Shown: one piece after another, positions 20,398-31,782 of the stretch
Layout: every line of letters begins with the position of its first letter
Position numbering within the stretch: the stretch's first letter is position 1
NCBI GenBank assembly: GCA_028687425.1
Contig: JAQUAD010000016.1
Location: 1 to 45,916 of the forward strand
DNA length: 45,916 bases
Reading direction: 5' to 3'
DNA from: Sideroxydans sp.
GTDB lineage: Bacteria; Pseudomonadota; Gammaproteobacteria; Burkholderiales; Gallionellaceae
Notes under the pieces: model-generated
Told to the model about the DNA's origin: nothing
Databases searched by the model: none
Seen by the model: only the letters and a program-made list of their open reading frames with translations
Program-made: the position numbers and the translations under genes

Positions 20398-21171
20398 TTA
20401 TTTCGGCTCGCGATAGTGGTCCTGTGTCATCAGGTCGACGCCGCACGGCAATGCCTCGATCCAGTTCAGGAACTCGTTCACCATCTTCTTGCCTTTGAAC
20501 ATGCGCCCGTGTTGCGGCACGATCATTTCCACGTCCATGCTGCGCACCATGTTCACCCAGAAGCGGCAGATCTTGTTGGAGATCATGTAACGCTTGTGGA
20601 AGCCTTCCATGTACTGGATGTGCGACTTGAAATCCTCGACCGGCGTATCAACCGCATTATGCGGCACGATGGATGCGCCCATGTCGCCGGTGAACAGTAT
20701 CTTGCTGACCGGATCGTAGAACTGGAAGTTGCCTTCCGAGTGCATGAAGTGCGCCGGGATCGCCTTGATGGCCGAATTACCCAGCGGCAATACCATGCCT
20801 TCGTCGGGAATGCCTTCCACGCGCCCGGCTGAATTGCCCACGCTGCAAAAGTGCGGCACAAAACGCGCCCACAGCTTGGAGATCATCACCTTGCATTCGG
20901 AGTGGATCATCCATTTGTTGACCGAAGCGATGATGTCCGGATCGGCGTGCGACGCCAGGATGTAATCCAGATTCTTCGGCGCGAAGTAGTTGTGCATCTC
21001 CATCAACAGACCGTTGTAGGTCATGTTGCCGCCCGGATCGAGCAAGGCACCGTGCCCGTTGTCGATGATCAAAAACTGGTTGGCCTGAATTGCCTCACCC
21101 ATGGAATCATCCACCAGGTCATCAAAGATCAGGCAAAGATGTTTGCCGTTATTGAACAGTTCGATCGCCAT
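20398..21171 (-). CDS. Oxygen-binding di-iron (ODP/FprA-type) metallo-beta-lactamase-fold protein
   Basis: The 257-aa protein has the di-iron metallo-beta-lactamase fold of FprA flavodi-iron proteins but no flavodoxin domain. Ligand motifs are 'SHADPDI' near residue 83, 'AHFMHSEGNFQFYD' near 147, 'LFTGDMGAS' near 167 and 'VPQHGRMF' near 224. Free-standing versions (ODP) are reported as O2-binding sensors; FprA enzymes reduce O2 or NO. It is cytoplasmic. It is transcribed divergently from the phosphofructokinase gene, and a perfect FNR-type box lies 71 bases upstream of its ATG with a possible -10 (TAATAT, complement of 21214-21219) placed as for a class II FNR promoter. Confidence 0.85.
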   Translation of the reverse strand: MAIELFNNGKHLCLIFDDLVDDSMGEAIQANQFLIIDNGHGALLDPGGNMTYNGLLMEMHNYFAPKNLDYILASHADPDIIASVNKWMIHSECKVMISKLWARFVPHFCSVGNSAGRVEGIPDEGMVLPLGNSAIKAIPAHFMHSEGNFQFYDPVSKILFTGDMGASIVPHNAVDTPVEDFKSHIQYMEGFHKRYMISNKICRFWVNMVRSMDVEMIVPQHGRMFKGKKMVNEFLNWIEALPCGVDLMTQDHYREPK

Positions 21172-24747: not shown

Positions 24748-25251
24748 TCATGCTGTCTTCCAGACCTCCCACCAGCGCTTGGTATCGGACATGAGTGCGA
24801 ATTCAGCCGTGGCTTCGCGCTCCCATGCCGTCACAGAGAAACCGGACTGCTGCAAGGCGGCACTGTACTTGGTATCCACGCCCTGGATATGTTCCCTGAG
24901 CCAGGATTTCAAAAAGCTCAGCATCTCGAAGTAGATCGGTTTCTCTTTCAGCAAGTGTTTGTTGGATAGCTCCTCCAGCTTTGCCATCAACTTGCGGTGC
25001 TCTTCCATGTGCGGAAGCAAGTCCTTGTATTTGGCCTCGCGCATCAATTTCTCTTCCAGCGCGAAATGTGTCCTGGTATAGCTGGTCAAGGCATCCAGTA
25101 TCCCCGCGATGGCCTTATTCCCTTCCCGCTTGGATACCGCAACGAAAAGACGATTCAGAATATTGACCAGTTCCTGATGTTGGTTATCGATGGTTTTGAT
25201 TTTGACGCTGTATTCGGGCAACCACTTGAAGAAAACCTCATCGCTATTCAT
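24748..25251 (-). CDS. Bacteriohemerythrin
   Basis: The 167-aa protein carries the hemerythrin di-iron ligands: His in 'IDNQHQELV' (about residue 25), 'HFALEE' (His and Glu, about 62-66), the HxxxH of 'HMEEHRKLM', and 'LREHIQGVD' (His and Asp). It binds O2 reversibly and may store, deliver or sense oxygen. The ATG at 25251 has a strong GGAGGTG site; a longer reading into the leader is rejected because it crosses regulatory RNA. The last 35 residues are an extension after the helix bundle. Its leader contains a c-di-GMP-I riboswitch. Confidence 0.93.
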   Translation of the reverse strand: MNSDEVFFKWLPEYSVKIKTIDNQHQELVNILNRLFVAVSKREGNKAIAGILDALTSYTRTHFALEEKLMREAKYKDLLPHMEEHRKLMAKLEELSNKHLLKEKPIYFEMLSFLKSWLREHIQGVDTKYSAALQQSGFSVTAWEREATAEFALMSDTKRWWEVWKTA

Positions 25252-25640
25252 TAAGCACCTCCACTGAATGATCAAAATGTTCAACAACATCCTCGAACAC
25301 GCACTGGTGGCATGCAAGATGGAAGTGTGCAGCAGCACCAGGAAGAAATAGCTATTGGATCAGTCACAGGACAGAGACATCTCTGCGGCAGTCCCGCTAC
25401 CATAGTTTCCCTTAGGCCGGAGACTTTGCGCCCATACCTTTCAGCATGTTTGCCAAGTGGGCGGATAATACTGCCCATTAGCTGTATGGACAATGCTTTA
25501 TTTCACTCCCCTGCCCAACTGGAATGTTCAAGCCGACTACGGCCAGTCTGCCAGTTAAAATCCTGGCTGCAATCCGGACTATTTGGTTTATCCTTGTCGA
25601 CACTAAATATCACCTTGATGATATCTACCAACTTTTGTAA
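25252..25640. other. Divergent intergenic region between hemerythrin and GGDEF-EAL genes
   Basis: No credible protein gene in 389 bases. On the minus strand it forms the riboswitch leader of the hemerythrin gene, with about 130 bases between aptamer and ATG that include a CAGAG/CTCTG hairpin. The promoters of both divergent genes should lie between about 25470 and 25630; none is obvious. Confidence 0.6.
25381..25460 (-). ncRNA. Cyclic-di-GMP-I (GEMM-I) riboswitch
   Basis: On the minus strand the conserved aptamer elements occur in order: GGCAAAC; a CATGC/GTATG hairpin capped by a GAAA tetraloop; GGGCGCAAAG; CTCCGGCCTAAGG, containing the tetraloop-receptor CCUAAG; GGTAGCGGGACTGCCG. AGTCTC pairs with GGGACT and GGCA with TGCC, closing the fold. 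These match the GEMM-I consensus closely. The aptamer sits about 130 bases upstream of the bacteriohemerythrin start on the same strand, so c-di-GMP probably controls hemerythrin expression. The expression platform is not clear; no T-run terminator is seen. Confidence 0.9.
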
Positions 25641-26939
25641 ATGAATAGCGTTGATTCTCTTACAGGTTTTCTGAATCGCTTCGGCTGCTTCCACACCGCA
25701 ATGCGGTTGGCAGCCGAAGCGACAGTCAATCACCAGACATTCGCTGTGATCTGGCTGGACCTGGACCGCTTCAAACAGATCAACGAATCGTTCGGACATC
25801 TGATCGGCGATGAAGTGATCGAGAACATTGCCACCCGCCTTCGCCCTTGCGTATTTGGTCGTGCTGAGATTTCCCGCGTCGGGGGAGATGAATTCGTGCT
25901 GCTGGCGCCGGGCTGCAACCGCGAGCGAGCCTTTGAGTTCGCTGCCGAATTGGCGCGCATCGTGCAGGAACCGCTCAATATCGGCAGACTGACGCTGCGC
26001 CCTACCGCCAGCATTGGTGTCGCTATCCACGAGCCCAATGAAGATCCGCTCACGCTGCTGGAGCGGGCCGACCACGCCATGTTTGCGGCAAAATCCCAAG
26101 GCGGCAACACCATCGTCTGCTCCGGCGATGAACCGATCCCGGGGCGTCTTGGCATCAGCCTTGCCCGTGAAGAGCTCTCAATCGAAAGTACTTTGCATGA
26201 AGCACTGGAGTCAGGCGGATTCTGCCTGCATTACCAACCGATCATCCGGGCGAATGGACAGGTCGAGGCAGTGGAAGCACTTATGCGCTGCAAGTTTGAA
26301 GGAGAGACCATCTCCCCGATGAAATTCATCCCGGTTGCCGAGAAAACCGGGCTCATCATCCGCCTGGGAGAGTTCAGCCTGTTACAGGGCGCGATGCATG
26401 CCCGCGCGCTGCAGGATGCCGGGCACGAAACCAAGGTCGCCATCAATGTATCGCGTGCGCAATTGATCTCACCCGAATTCACCCGGGCTTTGCATGCTGC
26501 GCTGGTATGTTCGAACGTCAGTCCCAAACTGATAGAACTGGAATTGACGGAATCGCTGTTCATGGATATATCCGATACTGTGCAGCAGAACCTGAAAGAG
26601 ATCATCGCCACCGGGGTGAGCCTGTCCATCGATGACTTCGGCACCGGCTATTCCTGTCTGGCAAGTCTGAAGGATATTCCGGCCGGCAAACTCAAGCTGG
26701 ATCGCGCCTTCGTGACCGTGCTGCCCGAAGACCGACGCGCATTGTCGGTCGTCAACGCCGTCACCCAACTGGGACATGAATTGGGCATGACCATCGTGGC
26801 CGAAGGCTGCGAGAACCAACAACAGATCGACGTCCTGCTCGAAGCAGGCGTGGATGCCATTCAAGGATTTTTCTATGCCAAGCCGATGCCGGATTCGGAG
26901 CTATTGCCATGGCTGAAAGCAAGGAGTAACAACAATTGA
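25641..26939 (+). CDS. Cytoplasmic GGDEF-EAL protein
   Basis: The 432-aa protein has no membrane segment or N-terminal sensor: the GGDEF domain starts at residue 1 ('MNSVDSLTGFLNRFG'). 'RVGGDEF' (81-85) is intact but the RxxD inhibitory site is absent ('FGRA'). The EAL domain keeps 'EALMRC' (212-217), 'INVSRAQ', 'ELTES', 'DDFGTGYS', 'KLDRAFV' and 'VAEGCEN', all the metal-binding and catalytic residues, so phosphodiesterase activity is plausible and cyclase activity possible. It overlaps the next gene by three bases. It is divergent from the hemerythrin gene whose leader senses its product or substrate. Confidence 0.93.
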   Translation: MNSVDSLTGFLNRFGCFHTAMRLAAEATVNHQTFAVIWLDLDRFKQINESFGHLIGDEVIENIATRLRPCVFGRAEISRVGGDEFVLLAPGCNRERAFEFAAELARIVQEPLNIGRLTLRPTASIGVAIHEPNEDPLTLLERADHAMFAAKSQGGNTIVCSGDEPIPGRLGISLAREELSIESTLHEALESGGFCLHYQPIIRANGQVEAVEALMRCKFEGETISPMKFIPVAEKTGLIIRLGEFSLLQGAMHARALQDAGHETKVAINVSRAQLISPEFTRALHAALVCSNVSPKLIELELTESLFMDISDTVQQNLKEIIATGVSLSIDDFGTGYSCLASLKDIPAGKLKLDRAFVTVLPEDRRALSVVNAVTQLGHELGMTIVAEGCENQQQIDVLLEAGVDAIQGFFYAKPMPDSELLPWLKARSNNN

Positions 26940-27808
26940 ACCAACACACCAGCAGTCCCACGCCTGTCGATCAAATGGTTGAAAAGGCGGTGCTCGACCT
27001 TGGCATCCCCCCTTGTCCCGCAATTCTTGATCGATTCATGGTGGAAGCGCGCAAAGACGAGCCGGACTATCATCGTTTAGCCAGCATCATCTGTTCAGAT
27101 GTCAGCCTCTCTGCCAGCCTGATCAAAACCGCCAACTCCCCTTATTTCGGCGCACGGCAACGCGTGCGTTCCGTAAACGAAGCATTGGTGATACTCGGCC
27201 TGAACACCGCCAGCCGTGCCGTCGCAGGCATCATCCTGCGCAAATCTTTCCCCACAGTGCCGAATATGGAACGCTTCTGGGACGCATCGTCCCGCTTCGC
27301 GCGTCTTTCCGGTTGGCTGGCGCAACAGCTCGATACACTCGCGTTGCCCCCCGAAGATGCCTACACCTTTGGATTGTTCCGTGATTGCGGCATCCCGGTC
27401 CTGCTCCGGCGCTTGCCCAGTTATGAATCGGTTCTCCAGTCCGCCAACAAGGAAGTCGAGCTCGACTTCACTCAAGTTGAAGACGCCGTGCTTCCTACCA
27501 ACCATGCCATGGTTGGCTGCGTACTGGCGCAAAGCTGGTGGCTACCCGAGGAACTCTGTCTGGCCATCCGCCATCACCACAACCATGGTGTACTGGCGAC
27601 CACCACTTCGCCGCCGCCCTTACTCAGTCGCAAACTCATCGCGACCACCCAGCTTGCAGAACATCTCGTGCAACAACAACTCGGCCTCAGCCTCACCCAG
27701 GAATGGGGCAAGTTGGGCGAAACCTGCCTGAACCTGCTGGATCTGGATGAGGAGAGACTGGGAGCATTGGCGGTCGAGGCAGCCCCGATCATCTCAGCCA
27801 ACGAGTAG
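26936..27808 (+). CDS. HDOD domain signalling protein
   Basis: The 290-aa protein has an HDOD domain over most of its length: 'LGIPPCPAILDRFM', 'ICSDVSLSASLIKTANSPYFG', 'VRSVNEALVILGLNT', and a degenerate HD-type 'AIRHHHNHG' near residue 209. HDOD proteins are non-enzymatic signalling modules tied to c-di-GMP or two-component pathways. The start is TTG at 26936, inside the stop of the GGDEF-EAL gene (TTGA), with AAGGAG upstream; an ATG 13 codons later is an alternative. Coupling to the GGDEF-EAL gene implies joint function. Confidence 0.88.
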   Translation: MNQHTSSPTPVDQMVEKAVLDLGIPPCPAILDRFMVEARKDEPDYHRLASIICSDVSLSASLIKTANSPYFGARQRVRSVNEALVILGLNTASRAVAGIILRKSFPTVPNMERFWDASSRFARLSGWLAQQLDTLALPPEDAYTFGLFRDCGIPVLLRRLPSYESVLQSANKEVELDFTQVEDAVLPTNHAMVGCVLAQSWWLPEELCLAIRHHHNHGVLATTTSPPPLLSRKLIATTQLAEHLVQQQLGLSLTQEWGKLGETCLNLLDLDEERLGALAVEAAPIISANE

Positions 27809-29318: not shown

Positions 29319-29345
29319 AACGGACGGTACGACCGTCCGTTTCTT
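29319..29345 (+). terminator. Terminator of folD
   Basis: Perfect 10-bp stem AACGGACGGT/ACCGTCCGTT with a 3-base loop, followed by TCTT. It lies 27 bases past the folD stop and abuts the stop of the convergent gene. The T-run is weak. Confidence 0.65.
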
Positions 29346-31782
29346 ACAAGTCGAACTTCTTCTTGAACTCAGCCAGCGGTAGCGGCTTGCCGAACAGGTA
29401 TCCCTGATACAGCGTGCATCCGTTCCACTCCAGGAAGTCGCGCTGCTCCTGCGTCTCCACCCCTTCCGCAATCACTTCCATGCCCAGATTGTTCGCCATA
29501 CCGATGATGGTCTGAATAATCGCGGCATCGGACGACTTGCTGCCGATGTGCTGCACAAAGGACTGGTCGATCTTGAGCTGGTCCAATGGCAATTGGGTCA
29601 AATAGGCCAGCGAAGAATAGCCTGTACCAAAATCATCCATGGCAAAGCTGATGCCGAGCGCTTTCAGGGAATGCATCTTGGCGATACTGTCACCGATATC
29701 ATCCAGCAAGATACTCTCGGTCAATTCCAGCTTGAGCCGGCTCGGATCGATAGCGGTATATTCCAGTATCTCGTGCATCTCCTGCACGAAATTCGCCTGC
29801 CGGAACTGCCGCGCACTGACATTGACGGCAAGCTGCAGATCACGGGTCTGTTCGTCTTGCGCCCAGACGCTGATCTGGCGACAAGCCGTTTCCAGCACCC
29901 ACCTGCCGATAGGTAGGATCAAACCGTTCTCTTCCGCCAATGGGATGAACTGGAGCGGCGGGATCAGGCCGCGCTCGGGATGTATCCAGCGCAACAGGAC
30001 CTCGGCCCCGACCACACGTCCCAGCTGGTCGACCTGAGACTGGTAATACAACTCAAACTCGTGCAGACGCAATGCCTCACGCAGGCCGACTTCCGTCTGC
30101 GCGCGTAATTCCAGCTCTTGCTGCATGGCGGGATCGAAGAAACGCAGTGCGTTGCGTCCCGACTTCTTGGCTTCGTACATCGCGGTATCCGCCTGCTTGA
30201 GCAATTCATCCATCGAATCTTTGTAATTGATCAACAGCGTGATACCCATGCTGGATGAGCTATGGAATTCGGAACCTTCAAGCTGATAAGGCTCGCTGAG
30301 CGAATGCAATACTTTTTCGCCCACTGCACGCGCCTGCACGGCGGCATGCGCGCTGTCTTCACTCAAGCCTTCCAGCAAGAGTACAAACTCATCACCGCCA
30401 AAACGTGACACGGTATCGCCTTCTCGTACGCAGGCTTGCAATCGTCGCGAGACCTCGATCAGCAACATGTCGCCGATAGCATGTCCCTTGGTATCGTTCA
30501 GCGTCTTGAAGTTGTCCAGATCGATGAACATGAGCGCGCCGCCCGTATGATTGCGTGCTCCCGCAGCGATCCCCTGACGCAAACGATCCAGCAGCAAGCG
30601 ACGATTGGGCAGCTGGCTGAGCGGATCATAAAACGCCAGATGATGGATCTCGTTCTCGGCTTTCTTGCGCTCGGTGAAGTCAACATAGGCACCGACGTAA
30701 TTGGTCACGTTGCCTTCCTTGTCCACCACGGCCGTGATACTCAACCAGGCAGGGAATATCTCGCCGTTCTTGCGGCGGTTCCATATTTCGCCCTGCCAAC
30801 TGCGTTCACGCTGCAAGCTGGCCCACATTCGCTCGAAGAAGACACCGCTCTGGCGGTCAGATTTCAGCACGGAGGGCCTTTTGCCGATGACATCGTCGGC
30901 AACATAGCCGGTCAGATCGGTGAATGCCTGATTGATCTGAATGATGATCGCATTCGCATCGGTGACGATCATCCCTTCTTCCGCTTCGAATGCGGTCGCC
31001 GCGATTCGCAACGCAGCTTCGCGCTCTTCCAGTTCGCTCATCATGCGATTGAACGCATGTGCCATGCGGGCGATATCGCTCGGGCCGCCCGGCTCCGCTC
31101 TCACCCCGATCTCTCCACGCTGCGCACGTGCCATGCTCTCCGACAGATGATCCAGCGGCCGCGACAGGTTGCGCGTCAGTTTGCCGATCAGGAACAGGAA
31201 CAGCAGTGCGAAAGAAAATGAGGTCAGCAGGTTGGTGATGAAAATATTGGTGGTCGTCTGGCTAAGGGAAGCCTTGCTCATCACCACCGAGACATACCCC
31301 AGCAATTCCGGTTTGCTCGCGTCACCAAAAGGCGATTCTTCCATCGGCTGTGAAAATACCGGTGCGGAAAAGTGCCATGCCTTTTTGCTTTCCGCATTGA
31401 GCATCGAATCGGCGTGCAATCCGCCCCATTCCTGTTGCTGCATGAATTGCGCCAGATCGTTATCGCCCTGCGCCAGCAACAGTTTGCCGTTGGCATGCCT
31501 GATCTCCATGCCGATCACGCCTGGAAACGACATGGTGGCATGCATCACTTCTGTGGCGTTATCCGCAGAGGAATAGATCAGCGCCAGCGTGCTTTGTCGC
31601 GCCAGATTGTCTGTGATGCGCCTTCCCTGTGAGATCAGATCCTCGCGTACCCGCTCGTTCACCTGCCAGGAGCCGGCGATCGAAGCAAACAGCGCCAGGA
31701 AAAGAATCCCCAATGTAATGGAAATACGGATCTGCCGTTTGAATGTGAATCTCTGAAAGAAAGCGCTGAACTGTCGTCTCAT
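29344..31782 (-). CDS. Membrane HAMP-PAS-GGDEF-EAL protein
   Basis: The 812-aa protein has membrane helices at about residues 20-38 and 183-200 enclosing a periplasmic sensor region. HAMP (201-255), PAS (260-372), GGDEF (382-548) and EAL (560-805) follow. The GGDEF motif is intact ('RFGGDEF', 462-466) with an RxxD site ('REGD') upstream. The EAL signature reads EVL (594-596), a tolerated change since the Glu is kept, and 'NVSARQF', 'ELTES', 'DDFGTGYS', 'KIDQSFV' and 'IAEGVET' are present. It could both make and break c-di-GMP. It starts 9 bases after a periplasmic binding-protein gene. Confidence 0.92.
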   Translation of the reverse strand: MRRQFSAFFQRFTFKRQIRISITLGILFLALFASIAGSWQVNERVREDLISQGRRITDNLARQSTLALIYSSADNATEVMHATMSFPGVIGMEIRHANGKLLLAQGDNDLAQFMQQQEWGGLHADSMLNAESKKAWHFSAPVFSQPMEESPFGDASKPELLGYVSVVMSKASLSQTTTNIFITNLLTSFSFALLFLFLIGKLTRNLSRPLDHLSESMARAQRGEIGVRAEPGGPSDIARMAHAFNRMMSELEEREAALRIAATAFEAEEGMIVTDANAIIIQINQAFTDLTGYVADDVIGKRPSVLKSDRQSGVFFERMWASLQRERSWQGEIWNRRKNGEIFPAWLSITAVVDKEGNVTNYVGAYVDFTERKKAENEIHHLAFYDPLSQLPNRRLLLDRLRQGIAAGARNHTGGALMFIDLDNFKTLNDTKGHAIGDMLLIEVSRRLQACVREGDTVSRFGGDEFVLLLEGLSEDSAHAAVQARAVGEKVLHSLSEPYQLEGSEFHSSSSMGITLLINYKDSMDELLKQADTAMYEAKKSGRNALRFFDPAMQQELELRAQTEVGLREALRLHEFELYYQSQVDQLGRVVGAEVLLRWIHPERGLIPPLQFIPLAEENGLILPIGRWVLETACRQISVWAQDEQTRDLQLAVNVSARQFRQANFVQEMHEILEYTAIDPSRLKLELTESILLDDIGDSIAKMHSLKALGISFAMDDFGTGYSSLAYLTQLPLDQLKIDQSFVQHIGSKSSDAAIIQTIIGMANNLGMEVIAEGVETQEQRDFLEWNGCTLYQGYLFGKPLPLAEFKKKFDL

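Follow-up and report, generated by a model that had tools for sequence, protein, structure and literature searches.

A compact c-di-GMP-I riboswitch candidate in the leader of a bacteriohemerythrin gene in Gallionellaceae

Is the amount of a stand-alone bacteriohemerythrin set by the second messenger c-di-GMP? The question is raised by the leader of a hemerythrin gene in Sideroxydans sp., a member of the Gallionellaceae, which are freshwater microaerophilic Fe(II) oxidisers. The window considered here is the whole stretch of DNA analysed, 45,916 nucleotides from a genome of 2.79 Mb (119 contigs, 99% complete). A first-pass annotation had read the leader as a c-di-GMP-I riboswitch and had proposed a circuit in which the second-messenger level sets an O2-binding protein, with a divergent GGDEF-EAL/HDOD pair as part of it. 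Comparison of the sequences makes it likely, in our view, that this gene's mRNA has a c-di-GMP-I riboswitch for its 5' UTR, transcribed from a cassette promoter; the riboswitch would control ribosome access, perhaps as an OFF switch.

The only Rfam match in the whole window is to RF01051 (c-di-GMP-I), with 66.4 bits against a gathering cut-off of 35 and an E-value of 6.2e-11 (cmscan, gathering threshold). The match spans model positions 1-87 and is not cut off. The covariance-model search was the check that the first-pass annotation had suggested, and the score is above the RF01051 cut-off. Its GEMM-I motifs were recovered in the order given on the minus strand, both in the sequence and in the Rfam alignment. 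Its placement at 25381-25460 is in the right place but 3-4 nt off the model match. The parts of the aptamer are as follows.

25384-25464, minus strand: c-di-GMP-I (GEMM-I) aptamer, compact 81-nt form (RF01051 match)
25433-25448, minus strand: GAAA-capped aptamer hairpin (Rfam alignment)
25390-25425, minus strand: second helix of the aptamer, with a shortened terminal stem (Rfam alignment and pair mapping)

The window aptamer retains 19 of the 22 Rfam consensus pairs, all 19 of them standard; the terminal stem of the second helix lacks three of its four pairs.

The next gene on the same strand begins 132 nt past the aptamer match and encodes a bacteriohemerythrin, and its start codon is at 25251-25249 on the minus strand. 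ORF positions and profile matches thus bear out the earlier claim that aptamer and hemerythrin gene lie on one strand.

24748-25251, minus strand: bacteriohemerythrin, 167 aa (PF01814, NF033749)
25258-25262, minus strand: Shine-Dalgarno sequence GGAGG, 6 nt from the ATG (from the sequence)

The 167-aa ORF scores 130.8 bits with the bacteriohemerythrin model NF033749 (cut-off 84) and 56.4 bits with PF01814 (cut-off 25.3). Judged by eye, the diiron-ligand positions H25, H62, E66, H81, H85, H121 and D126 align to those of DcrH-Hr (2avk; E 9.6e-16). This is the ligand set of five histidines, one glutamate and one aspartate given for hemerythrins in the accessible text of PMC9388753. About 4 kb from the hemerythrin gene, the ORF at 20398-21171 (minus strand) belongs to the ODP family with a beta-lactamase fold (PF19583, 257.7 bits). 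We take this fold to be a diiron one related to O2 or NO.

The pairing of aptamer and gene was followed through three genome sets: relatives (149 genomes, the window's own included), the family (158) and a class-wide sample (370). In the relatives set, c-di-GMP-I is found above cut-off in 84 of the 149 genomes, and a hemerythrin matching the query protein in 86. A protein match at E <= 1e-35 occurs in 23 of the 158 family genomes, one of which (G061) has a protein only 45% identical. Twelve of these 23 have the aptamer on the same strand, 101-140 nt upstream of the orthologue, and the other 11 have none at that place; a 13th contig that carries the cassette (L065) ends just inside the hemerythrin gene. 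All 12 pairings but one (G058, from another genus-level group) are in the genus-level group of the window. Searching 33 hemerythrin loci with R1, which was built from the window row and 11 others, returned the aptamer in 12, the very rows that built R1. Its score of 127.7 bits against the window aptamer holds by construction, because the window row went into R1. Among 20 hemerythrin loci without the aptamer there was no c-di-GMP-I match with cmscan at E <= 0.1.

A tree of 30 hemerythrins, of which 12 are labelled for the aptamer, requires three changes, compared with a mean of 9.7 when the labels are shuffled (0 of 500 shuffles as low). At least two of the three are forced by well-supported branches, and the aptamer has therefore been gained or lost more than once. 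Hemerythrin paralogues without the aptamer are also present in some genomes, and one genome with the pairing (G028) has 14 hemerythrin matches. The ten loci found with the window protein in the named collection are on MAG contigs assigned to Sideroxydans, Sideroxyarcus, Gallionella or higher taxa.

Conservation of the pairs bears on whether the aptamer is a decaying relic that is carried along with a promoter and has no effect on hemerythrin. In favour of a relic, the gene has no aptamer in roughly half of the genomes that have the orthologue, 6 of the 12 rows have A-C as the final pair of the second helix, and one row (L037) has a UAAA loop. Against it, every other retained pair is standard in all 12 rows, including six pairs of the GAAA-capped hairpin that vary in sequence, and the cassette persists where leader and neighbours are different. 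We consider a relic quite improbable.

A second question is the ligand. At the base that we provisionally assign to G20 in the reference numbering, 12 of 12 hemerythrin-linked aptamers have G. According to a review (PMC10333796), G20 favours c-di-GMP over cAMP-GMP. An aptamer that senses 3',3'-cAMP-GMP in place of c-di-GMP would have the same fold family, and GEMM-I variants of this kind exist (PMC7266159, accessible text), but the G at the mapped position in every row makes such specificity extremely improbable here.

Two further loci hint at repeated recruitment of hemerythrins by c-di-GMP-I aptamers. One hemerythrin-like ORF (L220) begins 127 nt past a c-di-GMP-I aptamer and scores 59.4 with TIGR02481 (cut-off 51.75), but it is below the cut-off with PF01814 (24.3 against 25.3) and NF033749 (58.5 against 84). 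The other (L141), 273 nt past its aptamer, scores 31.6 with PF01814 (cut-off 25.3) and 65.8 with NF033749, below 84. Within the class-wide sample, c-di-GMP-I matches occur in 65 of 370 genomes. Our own HMM found a hemerythrin at 0 of 89 of these loci, within about 1.5-2 kb downstream or to the contig end; the 125 matches listed, of which the 89 form a part, include two from the window's own genome. Hemerythrin as a general target of c-di-GMP-I riboswitches was rejected on this count.

The other side of the intergenic region carries the two genes that the first-pass annotation had drawn into its circuit.

25641-26939, plus strand: GGDEF-EAL ORF, divergent from hemerythrin
26936-27808, plus strand: HDOD ORF, divergent from hemerythrin

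Both are on the plus strand and divergent, as it had said. However, within loci that reach 1.5 kb upstream of hemerythrin, a close relative of the GGDEF-EAL protein (87-100% identity) is present at only 4 of the 12, namely the window and its three nearest. Two other loci have a weaker GGDEF match (34% and 32%) in the same direction as hemerythrin, not divergent. As the pair is kept at only 4 of 12 loci, it is neighbourhood and not a core part of the circuit, and we rejected it as such. It is the hemerythrin gene, not the GGDEF-EAL/HDOD pair, that the riboswitch accompanies. Of the circuit, then, the aptamer leading a bacteriohemerythrin gene stands, but GGDEF-EAL as a core part falls away. A second GGDEF-EAL protein (HAMP/PAS/GGDEF/EAL, 812 aa) is encoded at 29344-31782 on the minus strand, about 4 kb from the riboswitch.

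The aptamer sits in a same-strand gene leader downstream of a predicted sigma-70-like promoter and is followed by a hairpin.

25488-25493, minus strand: promoter -35 element TTGTCC (consensus scan)
25465-25470, minus strand: promoter -10 element TATTAT, 17-nt spacer (consensus scan and conservation)
25365-25387, minus strand: post-aptamer hairpin CGCAG...CUGUG, overlapping the 3' edge of the aptamer match (MFE folding, pair covariation)

Taken by itself the promoter consensus scan is not significant, with one promoter found where 1.3 are expected. The pattern TTG[AT]C-N17-TAnnnT, with its -10 element starting 16 or 17 nt before GGCAAAC, is present at 12 of 12 hemerythrin loci. At a spacing of 16-19 it is present at 46 of 66 compact loci, compared with a mean of 0.2 and a maximum of 2 in mononucleotide shuffles. 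As R1 contains the -10 element, the set of loci that it finds is biased towards those with one; the -35 element is outside R1.

When the 30 nt that directly follow the aptamer are folded, the minimum free energy structure has a hairpin at this place in 12 of 12 hemerythrin leaders. By themselves, only 2 of these leaders are better than dinucleotide shuffles at 5% (window leader, 0.173). Across 64 distinct compact leaders, energies average -10.35, compared with -5.04 in mononucleotide shuffles, and 72% of the hairpins are within the best 5% of their own shuffles. The stem shows compensatory changes; standard pairs fill 531 of 640 cells in the 64 leaders, against 481 (sd 5.4, max 500) when the 3' letters are redealt, a control that ignores the relatedness of the leaders. 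The aptamer, the gene, the promoter-like element at a fixed distance and the hairpin, together with their conservation, are established by sequence comparison.

The cassette is not confined to hemerythrin. R1 finds it at 74 places with at least 78 bits in the 158 family genomes, the 12 hemerythrin ones included. A pattern located 66 of these 74 as compact loci (8 were dropped), and 51 of the 66 were sorted by similar downstream ORFs using BLAST; the remaining 15 are outside the grouping. One member per named group was tested against Pfam. Lipoproteins account for 13 of the 51 grouped loci (the one tested matches IgGFc_binding, PF17517, with 220.6 bits) and hemerythrins for 12. Another 11 precede a Cys-rich protein of 60-65 aa with a CxxC...C...C pattern, for which the one tested has no Pfam match; these include L083, L064, L066, L080, L086 and L193. 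L066 also has a hemerythrin hit on the strand opposite to its aptamer, which was not counted with L220 and L141. Short exported proteins follow at 6 of the 51, with nothing above the Pfam cut-off for the one tested. The smaller groups include one that holds a PilZ protein (L225, 32.5 bits, cut-off 22.5), and a TPS-domain adhesin is also found behind a compact cassette (L067). As the same cassette precedes unrelated gene groups, hemerythrin is one of several targets.

How the aptamer would act on the gene was examined in the downstream leader. We found no terminator-like site in 25000-25900, and no U-tract follows the post-aptamer hairpin. An intrinsic terminator was rejected as the expression platform on this ground, which leaves translational or Rho-dependent control. 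Single-sequence folding of the leaders gave no convincing two-state switch, and this candidate was also set aside. Downstream pairing of the aptamer 3' strand is better than shuffles at 5% in only 1 of 12 leaders (L041, 0.020). Inspection by eye shows a CCG[CT]T motif in leaders, with complementarity to the 3' strand of the aptamer.

A signal appears when leaders are taken together. For folding, 47 of the 66 compact leaders were chosen by hand, leaving out loci with an unclear start codon or gene. In these 47, mean accessibility of the Shine-Dalgarno sequence falls from 0.392 to 0.275 when the aptamer pairs are forced. The drop of 0.117 compares with 0.046 (sd 0.016) in leaders shuffled between hairpin and Shine-Dalgarno sequence, where 0 of 100 sets are as large; in a separate shuffle run on the 47, 0 of 40 sets reached the observed drop. 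With 21 dereplicated leaders from all groups, 3 of 100 shuffled sets have as large a drop. Cognate anti-Shine-Dalgarno/Shine-Dalgarno duplexes are slightly better than permuted ones over the 47 leaders (554 of 20000).

Control is most likely at translation. The alternative of Rho-dependent or pause-based transcription control in place of ribosome access would suit the missing intrinsic terminator and the hairpin without a U-tract, and by eye the leader between hairpin and Shine-Dalgarno sequence looks C/U-rich. However, the hiding of the Shine-Dalgarno sequence over the 47 leaders points to translation, and we regard transcription control of this kind as unlikely.

The direction of the switch is the less certain part. 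If c-di-GMP raised hemerythrin together with sessile-state surface proteins that bear the same cassette, this would agree with the lipoproteins, the TPS-domain adhesin and the PilZ-type proteins behind it, which we would expect at high c-di-GMP. The folding is opposite: of the 47 leaders, 18 lose more than 0.1 in accessibility and one gains more than 0.1, and for the lipoprotein and the exported groups 0 of 100 shuffled sets each have as large a drop (3 of 100 for the mixed group). An ON switch is therefore a possibility that we hold to be somewhat doubtful.

The hemerythrin leaders contribute little to this signal. For the 12 alone the drop is 0.059 compared with 0.020 (sd 0.026), with 6 of 100 shuffled sets as large, which is not significant. 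In the six dereplicated ones it is 0.015 compared with 0.021 in shuffles (49 of 100 sets as large), and the duplexes show no excess over permuted ones in the hemerythrin group (fraction 0.33). The Cys group likewise shows no drop signal, with 49 of 100 shuffled sets as large. In the 12 hemerythrin leaders the forced aptamer lies 3.3-9.5 kcal/mol above the free ensemble. In the window's own leader Shine-Dalgarno accessibility is 0.24 both free and with the aptamer forced, and the fold of the leader as a whole does not exceed shuffles in stability (z 0.06). An OFF switch, in which high c-di-GMP lowers hemerythrin, is weakly favoured by the modelled folding over an ON switch, with a chance that we put at about even.

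We infer the following course for an OFF switch acting on translation. The sigma-70-type promoter conserved with the aptamer would start transcription a few nucleotides before the aptamer core, and c-di-GMP would bind the aptamer. The downstream leader, with its hairpin, pyrimidine-rich spacer and Shine-Dalgarno sequence, would relay binding as changed ribosome access and not as intrinsic termination: folding of the aptamer would free the spacer, which could then pair with the Shine-Dalgarno sequence, and less hemerythrin would be made at high c-di-GMP. The level of c-di-GMP, an attach-or-swim signal, would thus probably set the amount of bacteriohemerythrin made. Beyond this, we tentatively suggest that the promoter, compact aptamer and hairpin form a cassette specific to the Gallionellaceae lineage, a ready-made translational OFF switch for unrelated families, which might tie O2 storage or buffering by hemerythrin to the motile-sessile decision in these microaerophilic Fe(II) oxidisers. 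If so, an OFF cassette on bacteriohemerythrin would help to explain the many hemerythrins in these organisms. Cultured Sideroxydans lithotrophicus ES-1 has a genome of 3.00 Mb with 14 hemerythrin genes, according to the accessible text of PMC3770913. The question of c-di-GMP and hemerythrin could presumably be put to a cultured strain.

The genome carries a second c-di-GMP-I element (C75:11049-11151, minus strand, 103 nt, 60.1 bits), which precedes a MotB-like gene (L003 2067-2978); 7 such loci, its own included, are among the 123 examined. A MotB-like stator gene is a typical c-di-GMP target. A separate observation is that 17 of the 123 c-di-GMP-I loci of the relatives precede one membrane protein family (for example L017 1688-3028), and in the one member tested (L017) a class III adenylate/guanylate cyclase domain (PF00211, 66.7 bits) is combined with ankyrin repeats. 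A link from c-di-GMP to cAMP at the RNA level is possible through such cyclase-family targets.

We found no report of a link between a riboswitch, or GEMM RNA in particular, and hemerythrin in one library of open-access full texts, a scope outside which the gene lists of two founding GEMM papers fall. The earlier remark that no such control was known to the annotator in this group holds for those texts, but does not extend to print beyond them. In their accessible parts, PMC9549626 concerns other riboswitches in Magnetospirillum, the joint mentions of riboswitch and hemerythrin in PMC8576532 and PMC10101095 are unrelated, and PMC2996986 places GEMM before fibronectin-type genes in Geobacter and mentions hemerythrins separately. 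The window element would thus belong to a known riboswitch class, as a conserved member whose target is apparently undescribed.

Compared with other RF01051 c-di-GMP-I riboswitches, the window aptamer has the conserved core, the GAAA-capped hairpin, the second helix and the location in a leader, together with a G at the mapped specificity position and a score well above the curated cut-off. It differs in its compact 81 nt with a nearly absent terminal stem, in the promoter-like element 5' and the hairpin 3' that are conserved alongside it, and in its target, bacteriohemerythrin, which was not found near the 89 c-di-GMP-I loci read from the class-wide sample. The protein resembles DcrH-Hr (2avk) and the bacteriohemerythrin 4xpx in its single hemerythrin domain and aligned diiron-ligand positions. 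Unlike NF033749 bacteriohemerythrins, it extends about 30 residues past the domain match (7-133 of 167 aa) and has an aptamer in the mRNA leader of its gene. In Bhr-DGC of Vibrio cholerae and Bhr-HD-GYP of Ferrovum, as described in the accessible text of PMC9388753, hemerythrin is likewise linked to c-di-GMP, with a hemerythrin domain controlling a c-di-GMP enzyme within one protein. In the window the direction would be the reverse, with c-di-GMP controlling the mRNA of a stand-alone hemerythrin, so that the second messenger would set the amount of an O2-binding protein.
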